64,000 bases of DNA from Strigops habroptila (lineage: Eukaryota > Chordata > Aves > Psittaciformes > Psittacidae): contig NW_022651108.1 of NCBI RefSeq assembly GCF_004027225.2, forward strand, positions 146,112 through 210,111. Direction: 5' to 3'. The translations under genes and the position numbers were made by a program. Positions within the stretch are counted from its first letter, which is position 1; each line of letters starts with the position of its first letter. Below, piece by piece: positions 17,290-38,569 of the stretch. Under the pieces are notes generated by a model. That model did no database searches. It was given only the letters and a program-made list of their open reading frames with translations, and was not told the DNA's origin.

Positions 17290-22177
<4,888 letters not shown>

Positions 22178-22744
22178 GCTGGCAGCGGGGCCTCGCTGGG
22201 GCCAGGCCGGGCCCTTCCGGTGGCGGCGACGGGGGGGGGAAGGACCGGACGGTCCCGGCCCGAGGCCACGCCCCCCCCCCCCCCGAGGCCCCGCCCCACC
22301 GGCGCCCGGTGGCTGGTGTCGGTTCCCGGTACCCGGTGCCCGGTGCCGGTTCCCGGTGTCGGTTCCTTGTTCCCGGTGCCGGTGCCCGAATCCCGGTGCT
22401 GGTTCCCTGTTCCCGGTGTCGGTGCCCGGATCACGGTTCCCTGTTCTCGGATCCCGGTGCCGGTGCCCGGTTCCCGGTGCTGGTTCCCGGTTCCCTGTTC
22501 CCGGTGTCGGTTCCCGGTGTCGGTGCCCGGATCCCGGTGCCCGGTGCCCGGTTCCCGGTTCCCGGCTCCCCTCGGTCCCGCCCCGGGCCCCGCCCGCCGC
22601 CGCCCCGCCCCCGCCGCCGCCGCCGCCCTTTGTCCGCCGCCGTTGCCGCGGGCCCCGCCATGGCGGAACGGTGATGGGCGGCGGGGCCGGCCCGAGGATA
22701 ACGGGGCCGAGGGGAACCGGGAGCCTCATGCCGGGGCCGCCGCC
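22178..22744. promoter_or_regulatory. Divergent VASP-RTN2 promoter
   Basis: CpG-rich 567-base interval between the VASP ATG (22177) and the RTN2 ATG (22745). A GGTTCCCGGTGCC array lies at 22,316-22,570 and a CCGCCATGGCGG sequence at about 22,656-22,667. On the RTN2 side a five-codon upstream frame (22660-22674, TGA) overlaps a second ATG at 22674 that runs past the main start in another frame, so upstream-ORF control of RTN2 is possible if both lie in the leader. Confidence 0.65.
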
Positions 22745-25700
22745 ATGGGGCAGGTCCTGGGCTTCGCCCACTGCAGTATGAACCGGGAACCGGGAACCGG
22801 GGCCAGGGAGGGGCGGCGGCACCGGGAGCGGCTGCGGATGGAGGGGACCGGGATGGGGACCCGCGAATGGGGGGATAGGGATGGAGAACCGGGGGGGACT
22901 GGGGATGGGGAACCGGGAACCGGGAGGTGCCGGGGATGGGGGCACCGGGAATGGGGGAGTAGGGATGGAGAACCGGGAGGGACTGGGGATGGGAGTACCG
23001 GGAATGGGGAACCAGGGACACAGGGATGGGGAACCGGGATGTTAACCGCGATGGGGGGACCGGGAGTGGCCAGGAATGGGGGTACCGTGGATGGGGAACC
23101 GGGAACGGGGAGGGACCGGAATGGGGGGGGGAACCGGGGGACTGGTGGTTCGGGAACGGGGGGACGGGGTGGGTCCGAGGTCAGGGATAACCGGGGCGGC
23201 GGCACCGGGAGTGGCCGGGGATGGGGGTATCGGGATGGATCTGCCGGGAATGCGGGTACCGGGATGGGGGGATCGGGGATAGAGGGACCGGAATGGGAGG
23301 GACCGGGGATGCAGGGACCGGGATTGATGGACCGGGAATGGGGGTACCGGGGATGGGGAGTCCGAGGGGAGCACCGGGAGTAGCTGCGGGGGCAGGGACA
23401 AGGGGTGGGGGGAGTGCTGGAGTCGGTTTGGGGGTACCGGGACACTGGGGGGGGTCCCCACGGCCCCCCCACCGCCCCTTTGCGTGTCCCCCCGCAGAAG
23501 AGGCTCCATCCACGGCCTCCACCACACCGGACTCCACGGAGGGTGAGCGGGGCCGAACCCCCCTTTGGGGGTGCAGATTTGGGGAGGGGGGAACCCCAAA
23601 ACCCCCCCCTTGACCCCCCAAAACCCCCCTCAAAGGTGGCCCCGAGGAGCCCGAGTTCCCCCCCGAGCTGCCGGCGGCCCCGGTGCCCCCCGAGGAGGAA
23701 GAAGAGGATGAAGATGGGGGGACCCCCCCTCGGACTCCCCCTCGCGAACTCACCTTCTCCTACATCACCTTTGGGGGAGGGGGCAGCGCCCCCCAAACCG
23801 AGCCGGGCCCCCGCTGCCGCCGGGACCCCCGCCGAGGGCGCCCCCCCCGCCTGGGCTCAGGGCCCCCCCCCCCGGGGGCTGGACCCCCATTTAGGGGTCA
23901 GAGCCCCCCCAAAGCGGCAAGGGGAGCCCCCGGCTCCCTCCGAGGGGCGGCTGGAGCTGGGGGGGGCCCTTCTGGGGGGGGGAAGGCCCGAGATGGAAGA
24001 GCCCCCGATGAGGCCGGGTATGGGGGGGAGGCTTGGGGGGGTCATGGGGGGGTCCTGAGGGTCCCCAAGGGGGGGTGGGGGCAATGGGGGCTCATGGGAA
24101 GGGCTTGGGGGGAGTAGTGGGGGTGTCTAAGGGGGCTGCGGGTCATTGAGGGTAACGGGGGGAGGTCCCCAAGGGGGGGTGGGGGGCTTGGGGAGTCCTC
24201 AAGGGGGGTTGGGGGCAATGGGGGGGTCATGGGGGGGGGTCTCAAGGGGAGCTGGGGGCAACGGGGGGGGTTAAAGGGGGGAATGGGGGCCTTGGAGGGG
24301 TCATGGGAGGTCCCTAAGGGGGGGGCTGGAGGCAATGGGGGGGTCCCCAATATGGACTCGGTGTCATGGGGGGGCCCCGGGAGGGTCTCGGGTCCATGGG
24401 GGGGTCCCTATAACCCTCTGACCCCCTCATTCCCTCAGCAGCCCCTCCCCAGCCCGCAGGGGGAGCCCCGCGGCCGGCCCCCCCCGCGCCCCCCCCGGAC
24501 CCCCCCTCGACCCCGGACCCTCCCCCGGCGCCCCCCGACCAATCAGCGAGCCCGGCGGGCGCTGATGTACTGGGTGAGCGGCCAATCAGCGCCCCCGGGC
24601 ACGGCGCGGGGGGGAGCTCACTGCGCGGGGGGGGCCCCGGGGTCCGGTTGCGGGGAGGACCCGGGCGGCGGCGCGGGATTGGCCGCTAAAAATAGGGGTG
24701 ACCCCCCCCCCCAGGGCCCCCCCCCGGCAGCGACCGAGGGAGCCATGGAGAGACAGGGTGGGGGGGGCACCGGGGGGGCACTGGGGGTACTGGGGGTACT
24801 GGGGGGCACTGGGAGCACTGGGGGGCACTGGGGGGGCACTGGGGGTACTGGGGGGTACTGGGAGCACTGGGGAGCACTGGGGGGGGCACTGGAGGGGATA
24901 CTGGGTAGCACTGGGGGGGTAATGGGGGTACCGGGAAGTGCTTAAGGGGATACTGGGAATCACTGGAGGCACTGAAGGGGATACTGGGGGGCACTGGGGC
25001 ATCTCTGGAGGCACTGGGAACACTGGGGGGGGGGGCACCGGTGCTGCCGTGAGTGCAGTGTGGGAGCTGCTGTACTGGGATGCACTGGGAGGACTGGGAT
25101 GCACTGGGGAGCACTGGGGAGCACTGGGGTGCACTGGGATGCACTGGGGGCAGTGGGGGGGCTCTGGGGGTCACTGCGCTGCCGTGCCCGCAGTGTGGGA
25201 GCTGCTGTACTGGGATGCACTGGGATGCACTGGGGTGCACTGGGATGCACTGGGGTGCACTGGGGCCAGTGGGGGGGCTCTGGGGGTCACTGCGCTGCCG
25301 TGCCCGCAGTGTGGGAGCTGCTGTACTGGGATGCACTGGGAGGACTGGGATGCACTGGGGAGCACTGGGGAGCACTGGGGTGCACTGGGATGCACTGGGG
25401 GCAGTGGGGGGGCTCTGGGGGTCACTGCGCTGCCGTGCCCGCAGTGTGGGAGCTGCTGTACTGGGATGCACTGGGATGCACTGGGGTGCACTGGGATGCA
25501 CTGGGGTGCACTGGGGCCAGTGGGGGGGCTCTGGGGGTCACTGCGCTGCCGTGCCCGCAGTGTGGGAGCTGCTGTACTGGGATGCACTGGGATGCACTGG
25601 GGTGCACTGGGATGCACTGGGGTGCACTGGGGCCAGTGGGGGGGCTCTGGGGGTCACTTCGCTGCCGTGCCCGCAGTGTGGGAGCTGCTGTACTGGGATG

Positions 25701-28700
25701 CACTGGGATGCACTGGGGGGCACTGGGGTGCACTGGGGGGGCACTGGGGGTCACGGTGCTGCCGTGCCCGCAGTGTGGGAGCTGCTGTACTGGGATGCAC
25801 TGGGGTGCACTGGGGTGCACTGGGGTGTGATGGGTGGCACTGGGGTGCACTGGGGATCACTGGGGGGGCACCGGGGGTGACGGCGCTGCCGTGCCCGCAG
25901 TGTGGGAGCTGCTGTACTGGCGGGACCCCGCGCGCTCGGCGCTGGTGCTGGTGTCGCTCCTGGCCGCGCTGGGCTGCCTCGCGCGCTTCAGCGCCGTCAG
26001 CGTGGGCGCCTACGGGGCGCTGGCCGTGCTGGGGGTCACCCTGCCCCGGCGCCTGCACCGCGCAGCACTGCGGGCCCTGCGGCCCCCCCCGCACCCCAGC
26101 CGGTGAGTGACCCCCAACGGCGCCCCCAGGGGCACCCCCGGGACCCCCAGAGACACCCCCATTGACATCCCCATTGACCCCCCCATCGACATCCCCATTG
26201 ACATCCCCATTGACCCCCCCATTGACATCCCCATTGACATCCCCATTGACCCCCCCATTGACATCCCCATTGACCCCCCCATTGACATCCCCATTGACAT
26301 CCCCACTGACACCCCATTGACATCCCCATTGACATCCCCAGTGACACCCCCAGTGACACCCCCAGAGACCCCCCAATGACACCCCCAGTGACTCTCCCAT
26401 CGACACCCCAGTGACATCCCCATTGACCCCCCCATTGACATCCCCAGAGACACCCCCATTGACATCCCCATTGACCCCCCCATTGACATCCCCAGTGACA
26501 TCCCCATTGACATCCCCATTGACACCCCCAGTGACACCCCCAGTGACTCTCCCATCGACACCCCATTGACATCCCCATTGACCCCCCCATTGACATCCCC
26601 ATTGACACCCCCAGAGACACCCCCAGTGACATCCCCATTGACATCCCCATTGACACCCCCAGTGACACCCCCAGAGACTCTCCCATCGACACCCCATTGA
26701 CATCCCCATTAACACCCCAGTGACACCCCTGGGACTCCCGGAGACCCCCTTGACACCCCCCATTGATACCCCCAGAGACACCCCCAGTGACACCCCCGGG
26801 ACCCCCAGACACCCCCCAGTGACACCCCCAGTGACATCCCCGGGACCCGCCTTGATGCCCCTATTGAAACCCCAGTGACACCCCCAGTGACACCCCCGGG
26901 ACCCCCAGACACCCCCCAGACGCCCCCAGTGACACCCCCGGGACCCCCAGACACCCCCCAGTGACACCCCCAGTGACACCCCCGGGACCCCCCTTGACGC
27001 CCCTATTGACACCCCAGTGACACCCCCAGTGACACCCCCGGGACCCCCAGACACCCCCCAGACACCCCCAGTGATACCCCTGGGACCCCCAGACACCCTC
27101 CAATGACACCCCAGTGACACCTCTATTGACACCCCATTGACACCCCACTGACACCCCCATTGACACCCCCACTGACATCCCCATTGACACCACCAGTGAC
27201 ACCCCAGGACCCTCGGAACCCCCCCGGGGACCCCTCCACGTCCCCCCAGACACCCTCCAGGGACACCCCAACTACCGCCCCAGGGACCCCCCCAGGGATC
27301 CCCCAATGACACCCCAGGGACCCCCAGAGACACCCCAGAGACCCCTCTGGGACACCCAGTGACGCCCTTGGGACACCCTGGTCTGGCCCAATGTCCCCAT
27401 GGGAGGTCCCAATGTCCCAATCCCCATGGTATGGATGGCCTTGATGTTCCCATGGGGCGGTCCTGGGGTCCCCATGACCCATAGCATGGGGCGGCCCTGG
27501 GGTCCCCATGACCCATAGCATGGGATGGTCCTGGGGCCCCCATGACCCATAGCATGGGATGGTCCTGGGGTCCCCATGACCCATAGCATGGGGTGGTCCT
27601 GGGGTCCCCATGACCCATAGCATGGGGTGGTCCTGGGCTCCCTGTCCCATGCGGTCCCCCGATGTCTCCATCCTCATGGGTGGTGCTGATGTCCCCATGT
27701 CCTCATGCCATGGGGTGTCCCCATCCCTGTCCCTGCCCCATAGGGCGCCGCCGGAGGCTGCAGTGGGGCTGAGCCCCGAGGAGCAGCGGCGCTGGGCCCG
27801 GCGCCTGGCCCGGCACGTCACCGCGGCCACCCGCACCCTGGCCCGGCTCTTCCTCGTGCACAGCGTCCCCGAGTCCCTCAAGGTGGGGAGGTGTAGGGAG
27901 ACATGGGGCATGGGGGGACATGGGGGATATGGGGGGATATGGGGACATGGGGAGATATGGGGAGATATGGGGACATTGGGATATGGGGACATGGGGGGGA
28001 CATGGGGAGATATGGGGACATGGGGGGATATGGGGACATGGGGAGATATGGGGACATTGGGATATGGGGACATGGACATGGGGATATGGACATGGGGGAT
28101 ACAGGACACAAGGTGATATGTGGTGACATGGGGGGACACGGGGGGACACAGGGGGACATGGGGGACATGGGGACATGGTGACATGGACATGGGGATATGT
28201 GGACATTGGGATATGGGGACATGGACATGGGGACATGGGACATGGGGTTATGGGGACATGGACATGGGGACATGGGACATGGGGATATGGGACATGGGGA
28301 TATGGGAACATGGGGATATGGGACGTGGGGGATAAGGGACACAAGGTGATATGTGGTGACATGGGGGACACGAGGGGACACGGGGGGCAGTGGGGCGCTG
28401 GGGGGTGTGGGATGCGGGTGGTGACGATGGTGCTGGTGACAACGTCGATGCCGACGGTGGCTCCGGGCACAGTTCGCCTTCTTGTTCTACCTGCTGACCT
28501 ACGTGGGGGCCGTCTGCAACGGGCTGACGCTGCTGGGAGCCGGTACGGGACGGGAATGGGAATGGGACGGGAATGGGAATGGGATGGGGACAGGATGGAC
28601 ATGGGATGGGGATGGGATGGAGTGGAGATGGGGTGGGAATAGGGATGTGATGGGGACAACAAGGGATGGAGATGGGATGGGGATGGGATGGAATGGAAAT

Positions 28701-30437
28701 GGGATGGGGATGGGATGGAATGGAAAAGGGATGGGAATAGGGATGTGATGGGGACAACAAGGGATGGAGATGGGATGGGGATAGGGATGGGATGGGAATG
28801 GGATGGGAATAGGGATGTGATGGGGATAACAAGGGATGGAGATGGGATGGGGATGGGATGGAGTGGAGATGGGATGGGAATAGGGATATGATGGGGACAA
28901 CAAGGGATGGAGATGGGATGGGGATGGGATGGAATGGAGATGGGATGGGAATAGGGATGGCATGGGATGGAATGGAGATGGGATGGGATGGGATGGAATG
29001 GAGATGGGATGGGAATAGGGATGTGATGGGGACAACAAGGGATGGAGATGGGATGGGGATGGGATGGAGATGGGATGGGAATAGGGGTGTGATGGGGATA
29101 AAAAGGGATGGGCATGGGAATGGGATGGAATGGAGATGGGATGGGAGTAGGGATGTGATGGGGATAACAAGGGATGGAGATGGGATGGGGATGGGATGGG
29201 ATGGAATGGAGATGGGATGGGAATAGGGATGGGATGGGATGGAATGGAGGTGGGATGAGAATAGGGATGTGATGGGGACAACAAGGGATGGAGATGGGAT
29301 GGGGATAGGGATGGAATGGGAATGGGATGGGGATGGGATGGAGATGGGGACATGGCATTGATGTGGGAGACAAGGGACATGGGATGGGGACAGGGACATA
29401 GAGGGATGGGAGACAAAGGACACAGGATGGGGACATGGTGCGGGGATGGGGACATGGGATGGGGATGGGATATAAGGGGTGTGTGATGGGATATAAGGGG
29501 CGTGTGATGGGATATAAGGGGTGTGTGATGGGATATAAGGGGTGTGGGATGGGGTATAAAGGGTGTGGGATGGGATAGGGATGGGGACACGGGATGGGGA
29601 CACAGTGTGACGAGGTGCTGCCCATCCAGGCGTCATCTGCGCGTTCACCTTCCCCGTGCTCTACCGGCACCACCAGGTACATGGGGGGGACATGGGGGGA
29701 CACGGAGGGACAAGGGGGTGCTGGAGCAAGTCGGGGGGTGCTTCTCTGCCCCCCCCATGTCCCCAATTGTCCCCCGTGTCCCCAGGCCCAGATCGACCAG
29801 TACGTAACCCTGGTGCGGAGCCACCTGAGCCACCTCCGGGCCAGGTCAGGGCCCCCCCGAGCCCCCAAACCACCCCCAGCACCCCAAACCCAACCCCTGA
29901 TCCCCCAAACCCACCCCCAGCACCCCAAAACCACCCCCAGCACCCCAAACCCAGCCCCAGCACTCCAAAACAAGCCCCTGGACCCCAAACCCACCCCCTG
30001 ACCCCCCAAACCAGCCCCAGCACCCCAAAACCAGCCTCAGCACCCCAAACCCACCCCCTGACTCATCAAACCACCCCCAGCACCCCAAAACCACCCCCAG
30101 CACCCCAAAACCAGCCCCTGGACCCCAAACCCACCCCCGACCCCCCAAACCACCCCCAGCACCCCAAAACAAGCCCCTGGACCCCAAACCCACCCCCAGC
30201 CCCCCAAAACCAGCCCCTGGACCCCAAACCCACCGTCTGACCCCCCAGACCACCCCCAGCCCCCCGAACCACGCCCCTGGACCCCAAACCCACCCCCTGG
30301 CCCCCCCCAACCGCTCGGGGGGGGAGGTTGTTATGGGGTGCTCCCGGGGGGGTTTGGGGCACCCCGGCCCCCCCCCAGCTCCGCTCTCCCCCAGGATCCA
30401 GGCCAAGCTCCCGAGTGCCAAAGCGAAGCCGCAGTGA
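22745..30437 (+). CDS. RTN2: Reticulon 2, long isoform, 10 coding exons, one frame break
   Basis: Reticulon of the tubular ER; the C-terminal reticulon domain inserts hairpins that bend membrane. Exons: 22745-22775, 23498-23542, 23636-24017, 24439-24573, 25901-26102, 27744-27882, 28473-28542, 29630-29676, 29786-29844, 30395-30437; about 383 residues. The start MGQVLGFAHCK joins EAPSTASTTPDSTEG, then an acidic EEEEEDEDGG stretch and RELTFSYITF, as in human RTN2. The reticulon domain begins VWELLYWRDPARS, with two long hydrophobic segments, RLFLVHSVPESLK, VGAVCNGLTLL, FPVLYRHHQ, AQIDQYVTLVRSHLSHL and the end KAKPQ. Exon 3 starts in one frame and must end in another; the shift lies at about 23,770-23,875, best at the eleven-C run 23863-23873 with one base removed. 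Exon 4 is assigned by phase and its GADVL end. Exon 5's acceptor has seven upstream near-copies. Confidence 0.92.
22780..23400. repeat. GGGAATGGGGGTACCGGGA array in RTN2 intron 1
   Basis: Units such as GGGATGGGGGTACCGGGAAT and GGGGAACCGGGA, about 17-20 bases each. They start close to the exon 1 donor. Confidence 0.88.
24018..24400. repeat. GGTCCCCAAGGGGGG array in RTN2 intron 3
   Basis: Loose tandem GGGGGTCATGGGGGG and GTCCCCAAGGGGGGG units. No coding sequence was seen. Confidence 0.75.
24745..24757 (+). CDS. RTN2: Alternative first coding exon for a short RTN2 isoform
   Basis: ATG GAG AGA CAG G, followed by GT, ends in phase 1, which fits the exon at 25901-26102 and gives MERQVWELLYWRD. 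Mammalian RTN2 has a short isoform, containing little more than the reticulon domain, that starts from its own exon at this place. The preceding CCCCCGGCAG could also be an acceptor. Inferred from position and phase only. Confidence 0.5.
24760..25890. repeat. GCACTGGG array carrying seven copies of the RTN2 exon 5 acceptor
   Basis: Tandem GCACTGGGATGCACTGGG units. Within the array a 40-45 base block recurs: GCTGCCGTGCCCGCAG followed by TGTGGGAGCTGCTGTACTGG. The post-AG positions are 25059 (variant), 25194, 25310, 25445, 25561, 25677 and 25774, and the true exon begins at 25901. Spacings are 135, 116, 135, 116, 116, 97 and 127 bases, so 251 bases is a higher-order unit. Confidence 0.93.
26140..27345. 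repeat. CCCCATTGACAT array in RTN2 intron 5, first part
   Basis: Twelve-base CCCCATTGACAT and fifteen-base CCCCAGTGACACCCC units, changing to CCCGGGACCCCCAGACACC variants. Confidence 0.92.
27450..27645. repeat. 34-base tandem repeat in RTN2 intron 5
   Basis: Five to six copies of a 34-base unit containing CATGACCCATAGCATGGG and GGTCCTGGGGTC, with starts at 27485, 27519, 27553, 27587 and 27621. Confidence 0.92.
27895..28385. repeat. GGGGACATGGGGATAT array in RTN2 intron 6
   Basis: Units GGGGACATGGGGATATG and GGACATGGACATGG. The G-rich strand is the transcribed-sense strand. Confidence 0.9.
28550..29575. repeat. GGGATGGGATGGAATGG array in RTN2 intron 7
   Basis: Higher-order units of about 90 bases combining GGGATGGGAATAGGGATG, TGATGGGGACAACAAGGG and ATGGAGATGGGATGGGG. 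It ends in a 24-base GGGATATAAGGGGTGTGTGAT family at about 29,445-29,575. The plus strand is almost free of C. Confidence 0.9.
29855..30315. repeat. CCCCAAACCCACCCCCAGCA array in RTN2 intron 9
   Basis: Units of 18-25 bases such as CACCCCAAAACCACCCCCAG and CCCCTGGACCCCAAACCCAC. Confidence 0.9.
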
Positions 30438-30543
30438 CCCCCCCCCGTGTGTCCCCCCCTGCCCCGAGGTGACAGCGGGGGGGGGAGAAGGAGGCGGGGT
30501 CCCCCCACGGCCCCCCCCCGTCCTGTGGGGGGGGTCACACTTT

Positions 30544-30549
30544 AATAAA
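30544..30549 (+). terminator. RTN2 polyadenylation signal
   Basis: AATAAA, 106 bases after the RTN2 stop codon, within TTTAATAAAGACTC. It gives a compact 3'UTR. Confidence 0.85.
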
Positions 30550-30699
30550 GACTCTTGTGACAACCGGGATGGATTTGGGGACACGGCGGGGGGGGGGGAT
30601 GGAGGGGAGGGCGCTGGGGGACCCCCGTGTCTCCCGTCGGACCCCTCTGACCCCGCCATGTGTCCCCCCGGGCCCCCTCCAGCGCGGGAACCCGGCGGC

Positions 30700-30935
30700 G
30701 CAAACCCCGCCCCTTTCCCACCCTGGCCACGCCCCCATAGGGGTCTGACCACGCCTCCCTCCCTGCTGGCCACGCCTCTTTTTTGCTCCCTCCTCCCTCA
30801 CCCCCCCCCGCTCCGTTGCCAAGGACACGGCGGTTGCCGCGCGACGTAAACACGGGACGCCGGACGTGGTGACGTCACCGGCATGGAACGCTGTCGCCGG
30901 GCGACACGCGCGTGTTTACAGCGCGGGGTGGGGGG
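30700..30935. promoter_or_regulatory. Unassigned CpG promoter-like block with CRE
   Basis: Non-repetitive CpG-rich DNA between RTN2 and FOSB. It contains CCACGCCCCC/CCACGCCTC boxes (30,726-30,778), GTTGCCAAGG and CGGTTGCCGCG (RFX X-box-like half sites, 30,824-30,842) and the palindrome GGTGACGTCACC with a full CRE at 30870-30877. No adjacent reading frame resembles a known protein. Confidence 0.5.
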
Positions 30936-32390
30936 GGAAAGAGACCGGGACAGCGAATGGGATAGAGACCGGGATAGGGACCGGGATAGGGACCGGGATA
31001 GGGATAACGGGGATAGGGACCGGGATAGGGACAGGGATATGGGGGTAGGGACCGGGATAGGGACTGGGATAGGGACCGGGATAGGGATAACGGGGATAGG
31101 GACCGCGATATGGGGATAGGGACAGGGATATCGCGATTGGGACCAGGATATGGGGATAGAGAGCGGGATATGGGGATTGGGAGTGGGTTAGGGATCGGGG
31201 TATGGGCATAGGGACCGGGGTATGGGGATAGGGACGGGGATAGGGATAACGGGGATAGGGACCGGGATGGGGACCGGGACAGGGACCGGGATACGGGGAT
31301 AGGGATAGGGATAACGGGGATAGGGACCGGGATAGGGACCGGGACAGGGAGCGGGATACGGGGATAGGGACCGGGATATGGGGATAGAGACACGGATATG
31401 GGGACACCGGGATACAGGGACATGGGAACACCGGGACACCGGGATACAGGGATATGGTGACTCCGGGACACCAGGTTACAGGGATATGGGGACACCGGGA
31501 TACAGGGACATGGGAACACTGGGACACGGGGATATAGGGACACTAGGACACTGGGATACAGGGATATGGGGTCACCGAGACATCGTGATACAGGGATATG
31601 GTGACAGGGAAACGGGGACACCGGGAGGAACACTGCCAGGAACAGGACAAAGGCAGGGACACCGGGAGAGCCCGGTCAGACCCCAGAATACCGGGATACC
31701 AGGACACCGCGGAGAGCCCGGCCGGGACCGGAGCTGGGACACAGGAGCTGGGACCGGGACCCCGGGATACTGGGACAATGGGGGGAACCCGTCCGGACCC
31801 CGAGACACCGGGACACGAGGACACCGGAATCCGGAGGGAACCCGGCTTGGACCGGGATACGGGGCTGGGAACACCGGGGAGAGCCTGGCCGAGACCAGGG
31901 TACTGGGACAATGGGGGTAACCCGGCCGGGACCGGGACACCGGCATACAGGGACACCGGGACACTGGGGAGAGCCTGGCCAGGCCCCGCCGGGATACCAG
32001 GACAGGGATACCGGGATACCGGGGGCTGCCGGCATAACAGAAAACCGGGACTGGGACATCGGGACCCGGGAGGAATCTGGCCGGGACCGGGAGACCGGAG
32101 GGAATCTGGCAGGACCCGGGCGCAGGGACAGGGACACCGGGACTGGAACGGGGAAAGGAACCCCGGGGGAGGAACGTGAGCAGGACACTGGGACACCGGG
32201 ACAACGGGGACAGCCCGGCCGGGACCGGGACACCGGGGGAAACCCGGCCCGACCCCGGAACCGAGATCACGGGAACAGCACGGAAAAGGACGGGGACCGC
32301 GGGGCTGGGAATACCGGGACACCACCGGGACACGGGGGCTGCCCCCCCCCCGGCCCCGCCCCCCCGCGCTGGGGGCGGGACTTGCCCTGA
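30935..32390. repeat. GGGATAGGGACC and GGGACACCGGGATAC arrays
   Basis: From 30,935 to about 31,390 the unit is GGGATAGGGACC (about 12 bases) with GGGATAACGG variants. Beyond that come GGGACACCGGGATACAGGGA and GGGACCGGGACACCGG-type units to about 32,290. Confidence 0.9.

Positions 32391-34337: not shown

Positions 34338-38569
<4,232 letters not shown>

Follow-up and report, generated by a model that had tools for sequence, protein, structure and literature searches.

The intron that precedes exon 5 of the reticulon gene RTN2, in the 64,000-nucleotide stretch of DNA analysed here (the window, positions 1-64000), contains seven direct copies of its own border with that exon, each made up of the acceptor region and the first 20 bases of the exon, upstream of the true exon start at 25901. 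The array is a real, well-preserved instance of a recently described instability, the exon stuttering of chicken genes, and thus is not new as a class of duplication. We regard it as very probably a functionless by-product of a microhomology-seeded duplication that was followed by later exchange.

The exon-start sequence TGTGGGAGCTGCTGTACTGG begins at 25059, 25194, 25310, 25445, 25561, 25677 and 25774 as well as at the true exon start 25901, and all eight coordinates agree exactly with those of a first-pass annotation of this DNA. A 24-mer comprising acceptor and exon matched eight times in the 64 kb at three or fewer mismatches, whereas 100 dinucleotide shuffles produced no match. Six of the seven extra copies keep the acceptor decamer GTGCCCGCAG unchanged, the leftmost one (copy 1) reading GTGAGTGCAG; the earlier view that a splice acceptor was multiplied in tandem is upheld, the acceptor of copy 1 having diverged. 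The exon is left after exactly 20 bases in all seven copies, with GATGCACTGGG as the continuation, which sharpens the previous observation that each copy departs from the exon at TACTGG, and the VWELLYW codons are retained in every copy. Successive exon starts are 135, 116, 135, 116, 116, 97 and 127 nt apart, i.e., the alternation of 135 and 116 noted before is present but confined to the first four spacings.

All of these elements lie on the plus strand. A CACTGGG-type intronic minisatellite (24763-25042) is followed by copy 1 (25049-25078; diverged acceptor and 20 exon nucleotides, 135-nt unit), copy 2 (25184-25213; acceptor and 20 exon nucleotides, 116-nt unit), copy 3 (25300-25329; a 135-nt unit, the same as that of copy 1), copy 4 (25435-25464; a 116-nt unit, the same as that of copy 2), copy 5 (25551-25580; a 116-nt unit with one substitution relative to that of copy 2), copy 6 (25667-25696; 97-nt unit) and copy 7 (25764-25793; a 127-nt unit, diverged from units 1-5 and carrying TGA 25828 and TGA 25878). 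The true acceptor (25891-25900) and reticulon exon 5 (25901-26102, 202 nt, donor at 26103; together 25891-26102) complete the series, the exon number being that of the first-pass annotation. The coding exon itself is unaltered, open and intact in the reticulon frame.

The main text of Hron et al. 2026 (PMC12954441) describes "sequence stuttering", which affects introns of chicken dot chromosomes, and as a subtype exon stuttering, in which the edge of an exon recurs, along with its donor or acceptor, throughout the neighbouring intron. It reports 115 genes and 236 introns with a strong preference for dot microchromosomes (190 introns), an exon part of 20-187 nt, 1-44 copies and a span of 112-23,555 bp; 183 of the 192 exon-stuttering introns assessed varied in length, and length polymorphism is given as a main feature. 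The criterion stated there corresponds to what is found in RTN2: the intron preceding exon 5 holds seven direct copies, each starting from the first base of the exon and bearing an AG acceptor, and this host intron is repeat-rich (1143 nt, 98% tandem repeat, GC 69%). As in the chicken, the edge of a coding exon and its splice site are repeated directly and in tandem in an adjacent GC-rich, repeat-filled intron, the coding exon is intact, and copy number and span are within the published ranges. The window lies in a 286,977-base contig (C80) of an assembly of 89 contigs that total 1.149 Gb and has a GC content of 66%; 61.5% of it is tandem repeat according to Tandem Repeats Finder, in many separate arrays with differing units. 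Genome size, gene order and the character of the repeats suggest a bird, and probably not the chicken, since the RTN1-like exon is on a contig of 86.5 Mb whereas chicken RTN1 is on chromosome 5, of about 60 Mb. For mitochondrial cytochrome b there were only three partial matches (45-63% identity), all on large contigs and probably nuclear fragments. Eighteen G-quadruplex-type motifs occupy 611 of the 1143 nt of the RTN2 intron on the plus strand (24758-25900) and are a possible source of replication trouble.

The comparison of the units bears on the origin of the array. Unit 3 is the same as unit 1 (135/135) and unit 4 the same as unit 2 (116/116), and unit 5 matches the latter two at 115 of 116 positions, while the last unit, which adjoins the true exon, matches unit 2 at 109 of 116 positions with 11 gap positions in addition. 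Units 6 and 7 are diverged, and the sole further divergence, in the acceptor of copy 1, is at the left end. The region is GC-rich and full of repeats, and a tandem expansion within it very probably swept the intron-exon border into the intronic minisatellite. The founding duplication would have joined exon base 20 (CTGTACTGG) to an ACTGG of the CACTGGG minisatellite; all seven copies share one junction, and a single founding junction is the simplest reading. In the intron 5' of the array ACTGG occurs 20 times and TACTGG seven times, so that 5-6 nt of microhomology was available for that junction, in support of the earlier suggestion that microhomology at ACTGG was the seed. Unequal exchange, slippage or gene conversion would then have multiplied the unit, the latest step probably being the duplication of a two-unit block of 251 nt. 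A part of the unit of the CACTGGGGTG type (25206-25292) has matches at more than 100 places spread over 22 further contigs; the background minisatellite is thus not unique to the RTN2 intron, unlike the exon-bearing unit.

The use of any decoy acceptor is predicted to be non-productive. When the short first exon (see below) was joined to each decoy and translated on through exon 10, all seven products lacked the reticulon domain and ended at a premature stop. Copies 3 and 4 (in frame) end at TGA 25828 and copies 5 and 7 at TGA 25878, and in copies 1, 2 and 6 the exon is frameshifted and a stop is reached 27 nt into exon 6. These premature stops are 288-589 nt 5' of the last junction, and decoy use would give RNA that nonsense-mediated decay probably removes. 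Both TGA codons, which shut two of the three decoy frames, are in the unit adjoining the true exon.

The first-pass annotation had proposed that the copies encode altered entries into the reticulon domain or pseudo-exons, and the VWELLYW codons in every copy as well as an open frame around some of them could be taken in that sense. The shared open frame of copies 1 and 2 is real (it begins at 24923, includes copy 6 and runs to a stop at 26108-26110), but it differs from the reticulon frame and frameshifts the reticulon exon. No decoy leads into the reticulon frame uninterrupted by a stop. Acceptors and donors were scored with an approximate weight matrix, and no donor scoring at least 2.5 was found between 24759 and 26102, so that a pseudo-exon is unlikely. 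We therefore rejected both the altered entry (stops with all seven decoys) and the pseudo-exon (no such donor in the array), and consider it extremely improbable that the copies have either role.

The position of the true acceptor gives a reason why it would probably be chosen over the decoys. The donor at 26103 is the best in the stretch (6.29) and forms a 202-nt exon with 25901, while decoy use would lead to exons of 329-1044 nt. Since 25901 is nearest to that donor across the exon, it should win, and Carranza et al. 2022 (PMC9225289) report that proximity across the exon decides the preference between sites when the flanking introns are large. Judged from sequence features, it is most likely that the decoys are rarely used or yield RNA that is decayed, low-level use with removal of the RNA by decay being quite possible, and a function of the array appears less likely than a by-product.

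Several observations weigh against this interpretation. In BLASTn with the settings of Hron et al., exon 5 gave seven 20-nt matches in the upstream intron at 40.1 bits each, which is sufficient in length but below the published noise filter (a match of at least 20 nt at at least 42.1 bits; this filter is not the definition of exon stuttering in their text). The best of 200 mononucleotide shuffles of the intron reached 38.2 bits, and a cluster of sub-threshold matches such as this one would be missed by the filter; the RTN2 stub of 20 nt equals the published minimum. The exact junction partner ACTGGGATGCACTGGG occurs 18 times within the array, but none was found in the intron 5' of it (the nearest sequence has 2 mismatches), which suggests that the founding intron site has been lost or altered. 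Of 37 AGs scored between 24791 and 25901, the seven decoys and the true site take the first eight ranks, the true site coming only seventh; six of the seven decoys outscore it (2.61, four at 0.88, and -0.46, compared to -0.85), and copy 6 has the top-scoring acceptor of the intron. The stack of competing 3' splice sites that had been proposed is thus upheld as far as acceptor-like sites are concerned, and local acceptor sequence does not silence the decoys. The branch-like motif at -21 is GTGAC at the true site compared to GTCAC in copies 2-7 and may be a better branch point, but it is the sole local feature seen to favour the true site, and a weak one (TGA 25878 overlaps this motif). Moreover, the upstream of two acceptors at least 20 nt apart is generally preferred according to Carranza et al. 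2022 (PMC9225289), by which the decoys could see appreciable use, although this preference is reported there to be significantly reduced under exon definition.

It might be that the decoys are measurably used as poison acceptors, their number per allele tuning RTN2 output through nonsense-mediated decay. The scores of the six decoys, the stops of the decay-triggering kind in all seven, the general preference for upstream acceptors and the length variability of the chicken introns (Hron et al. 2026, PMC12954441) would agree with such a role. We consider it improbable, because exon definition should favour 25901 and because the stops are without sign of selection; chance could place them in a long out-of-frame read-through. 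Somewhat less probable again is the broader idea that a stuttering intron is a mutable dial, in which the allelic number of acceptors sets the loss of RTN2 RNA, and that published screens undercount introns with short stubs.

A further alternative is an artefact of assembly or sequencing, the copy number having been inflated by misassembly of a GC-rich tandem repeat. The array contains a perfect 287-nt repeat at a 251-nt shift, and Hron et al. 2026 (PMC12954441) caution about technical artefacts in stuttering introns, although raw reads verified the general structure for PHF8. Four unit lengths (135, 116, 97 and 127) with private differences are hard to obtain by stutter alone, and all seven full-length matches of a 144-nt query in the genome (among the best candidates scored) are located at the RTN2 array; an artefact is accordingly very unlikely in our estimation.

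Other exon edges were also searched. In the 2.5 kb upstream of the corresponding exons of three other reticulon genes (RTN4, RTN1 and RTN3 by our reading, on contigs C6, C4 and C50, respectively), copies at 38.2 bits or more were present in none of the three. The tandem-repeat fractions of these regions are 0, 0 and about 0.46 (0.98 in the RTN2 intron), and their GC contents are 0.43, 0.41 and 0.62 (0.69 in the RTN2 intron). The RTN3-like exon (C50:51900-55200) lies on a contig of 114,670 bases in which the upstream region is GC-rich and partly repetitive, and a second reticulon gene may thus sit on a small unstable chromosome. Among eight RTN2 exons or exon parts screened, copies were found for exon 5 only and for none of the other seven. 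A search for a second stuttered edge on both strands of the window (with filters for a repeat-free interior and for complexity) returned many copied repeat edges; only 25901 coincides with an identified exon boundary, in a census that is incomplete because the exons of the neighbouring genes are uncurated. At 36525-36530 and 52931, inspected by eye, no coding exon was seen. No relative of exon 5 was found in a prokaryote genome collection and no match to the 24-mer in viral contigs (neither set comprising bird genomes). A direct duplication at 35107-35265 (114-nt spacing, one mismatch in the best 26) is located outside the masked tandem repeats and 5' of the FOSB bZIP exon.

The gene had been named RTN2 before, and its spliced product and neighbourhood agree with that name. 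The spliced product of 190 residues matched Pfam Reticulon (PF02453) with an E value of 4.4e-34 and 118.1 bits (cutoff 31.8) over profile positions 1-155 of 157, and exon 25901-26102 alone reached 5.8e-08 and 33.2 bits (cutoff 31.8; 30.1, just under the cutoff, in the genome-wide exon-by-exon search). Against sequences of solved structures the spliced protein gave weak matches to reticulon-4 fragments (E 5e-4 and 0.027) and exon 5 alone gave no match. Pfam searches of ten open reading frames (ORFs) yielded matches for five, three of them over the cutoff; RTN2 exons 6 and 7 were without a match, as were one EXOC3L2-like ORF and the MARK4 ORFs. One weak Reticulon match came from translating straight through 27500-31200 and 21000-24580. 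Four neighbouring ORFs have GIPR, VASP, FosB and MARK4 as best matches among solved-structure sequences, and a further one has a Sec6 family match below the cutoff, which we take to be EXOC3L2. This neighbourhood (GIPR, VASP, FOSB, EXOC3L2 and MARK4) presumably corresponds to the gene order of human 19q13.32, from which we conclude that the gene is RTN2 and not RTN1, RTN3 or RTN4; the three other reticulon first-domain exons are on other contigs.

Downstream of exon 5, the plus strand contains exon 6 (27744-27882, 139 nt), exon 7 (28473-28542, 70 nt), exon 8 (29630-29676, 47 nt), exon 9 (29786-29844, 59 nt) and the coding part of the final exon (30395-30437, 43 nt) through its TGA stop, with GT-AG borders and an AATAAA near 30544; these lengths presumably match the general structure of reticulon genes. 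Upstream, a long-isoform exon ends at 24573 (24439-24573, plus strand, 24439 being merely the first position included and not a mapped exon start), its donor at 24574 (GG followed by GTGAGC, phase 1) scoring 3.27 and its frame ADVL-G continuing into VWELLYW. The TATA-like element CTAAAAATAG (24686-24695, plus strand), a match to the MEF2 consensus, lies 49 nt 5' of the ATG of a predicted short-isoform first exon, the coding part of which (24745-24757, plus strand; M-E-R-Q-G) reads ATG GAG AGA CAG G before the GTGGGG of a donor at 24758 (score 2.51) that is in phase 1, as is the long-isoform donor at 24574. The region 24686-24757 is likely the promoter and first coding exon of the RTN2 short isoform, to which the first-pass annotation did not refer, and the predicted exon resembles the start of human RTN2-C. 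If this start is used, both likely transcripts would have to be spliced across the array before 25901 is joined.

The array can also be compared with other systems. Introns can be gained by tandem genomic duplication, when an exonic AGGT is duplicated and a new intron results; here as there, duplicated splice-site sequence creates extra potential splice sites, but in RTN2 an existing intron-exon border was copied into an intron and no new intron is formed. Intronic minisatellites (variable number tandem repeats) are likewise GC-rich arrays of short units subject to turnover, to which the RTN2 unit adds an exon border. For duplicated splice sites, Reed and Maniatis reportedly described a proximity rule in 1986. 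As in such competition systems, several acceptors of similar strength vie for one donor; the sites of Reed and Maniatis and of Carranza et al. are ordinary alternatives or designed constructs, whereas in RTN2 the competition has arisen naturally as a side effect of the expanding repeat. The main text of Hron et al. 2026 (PMC12954441) does not mention RTN2, and our literature searches found no paper on RTN2 stuttering or on the splicing of RTN2 in birds. The gene is new (judging by that main text), as is probably the species; new too are the stub below the score filter, the prediction of a short-isoform exon and the predicted non-productive outcome of all decoys.

The RTN2 array provides a clean natural test of how the spliceosome chooses among eight near-identical acceptors, in a gene in which every wrong acceptor is expected to be non-productive. 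It also suggests that exon stuttering reaches beyond the chicken, into a genome that is probably from another bird, and that arrays whose exon stub is 20 nt long would escape the published screen. If the decoys are used, repeat-length alleles of this intron would become regulatory alleles.

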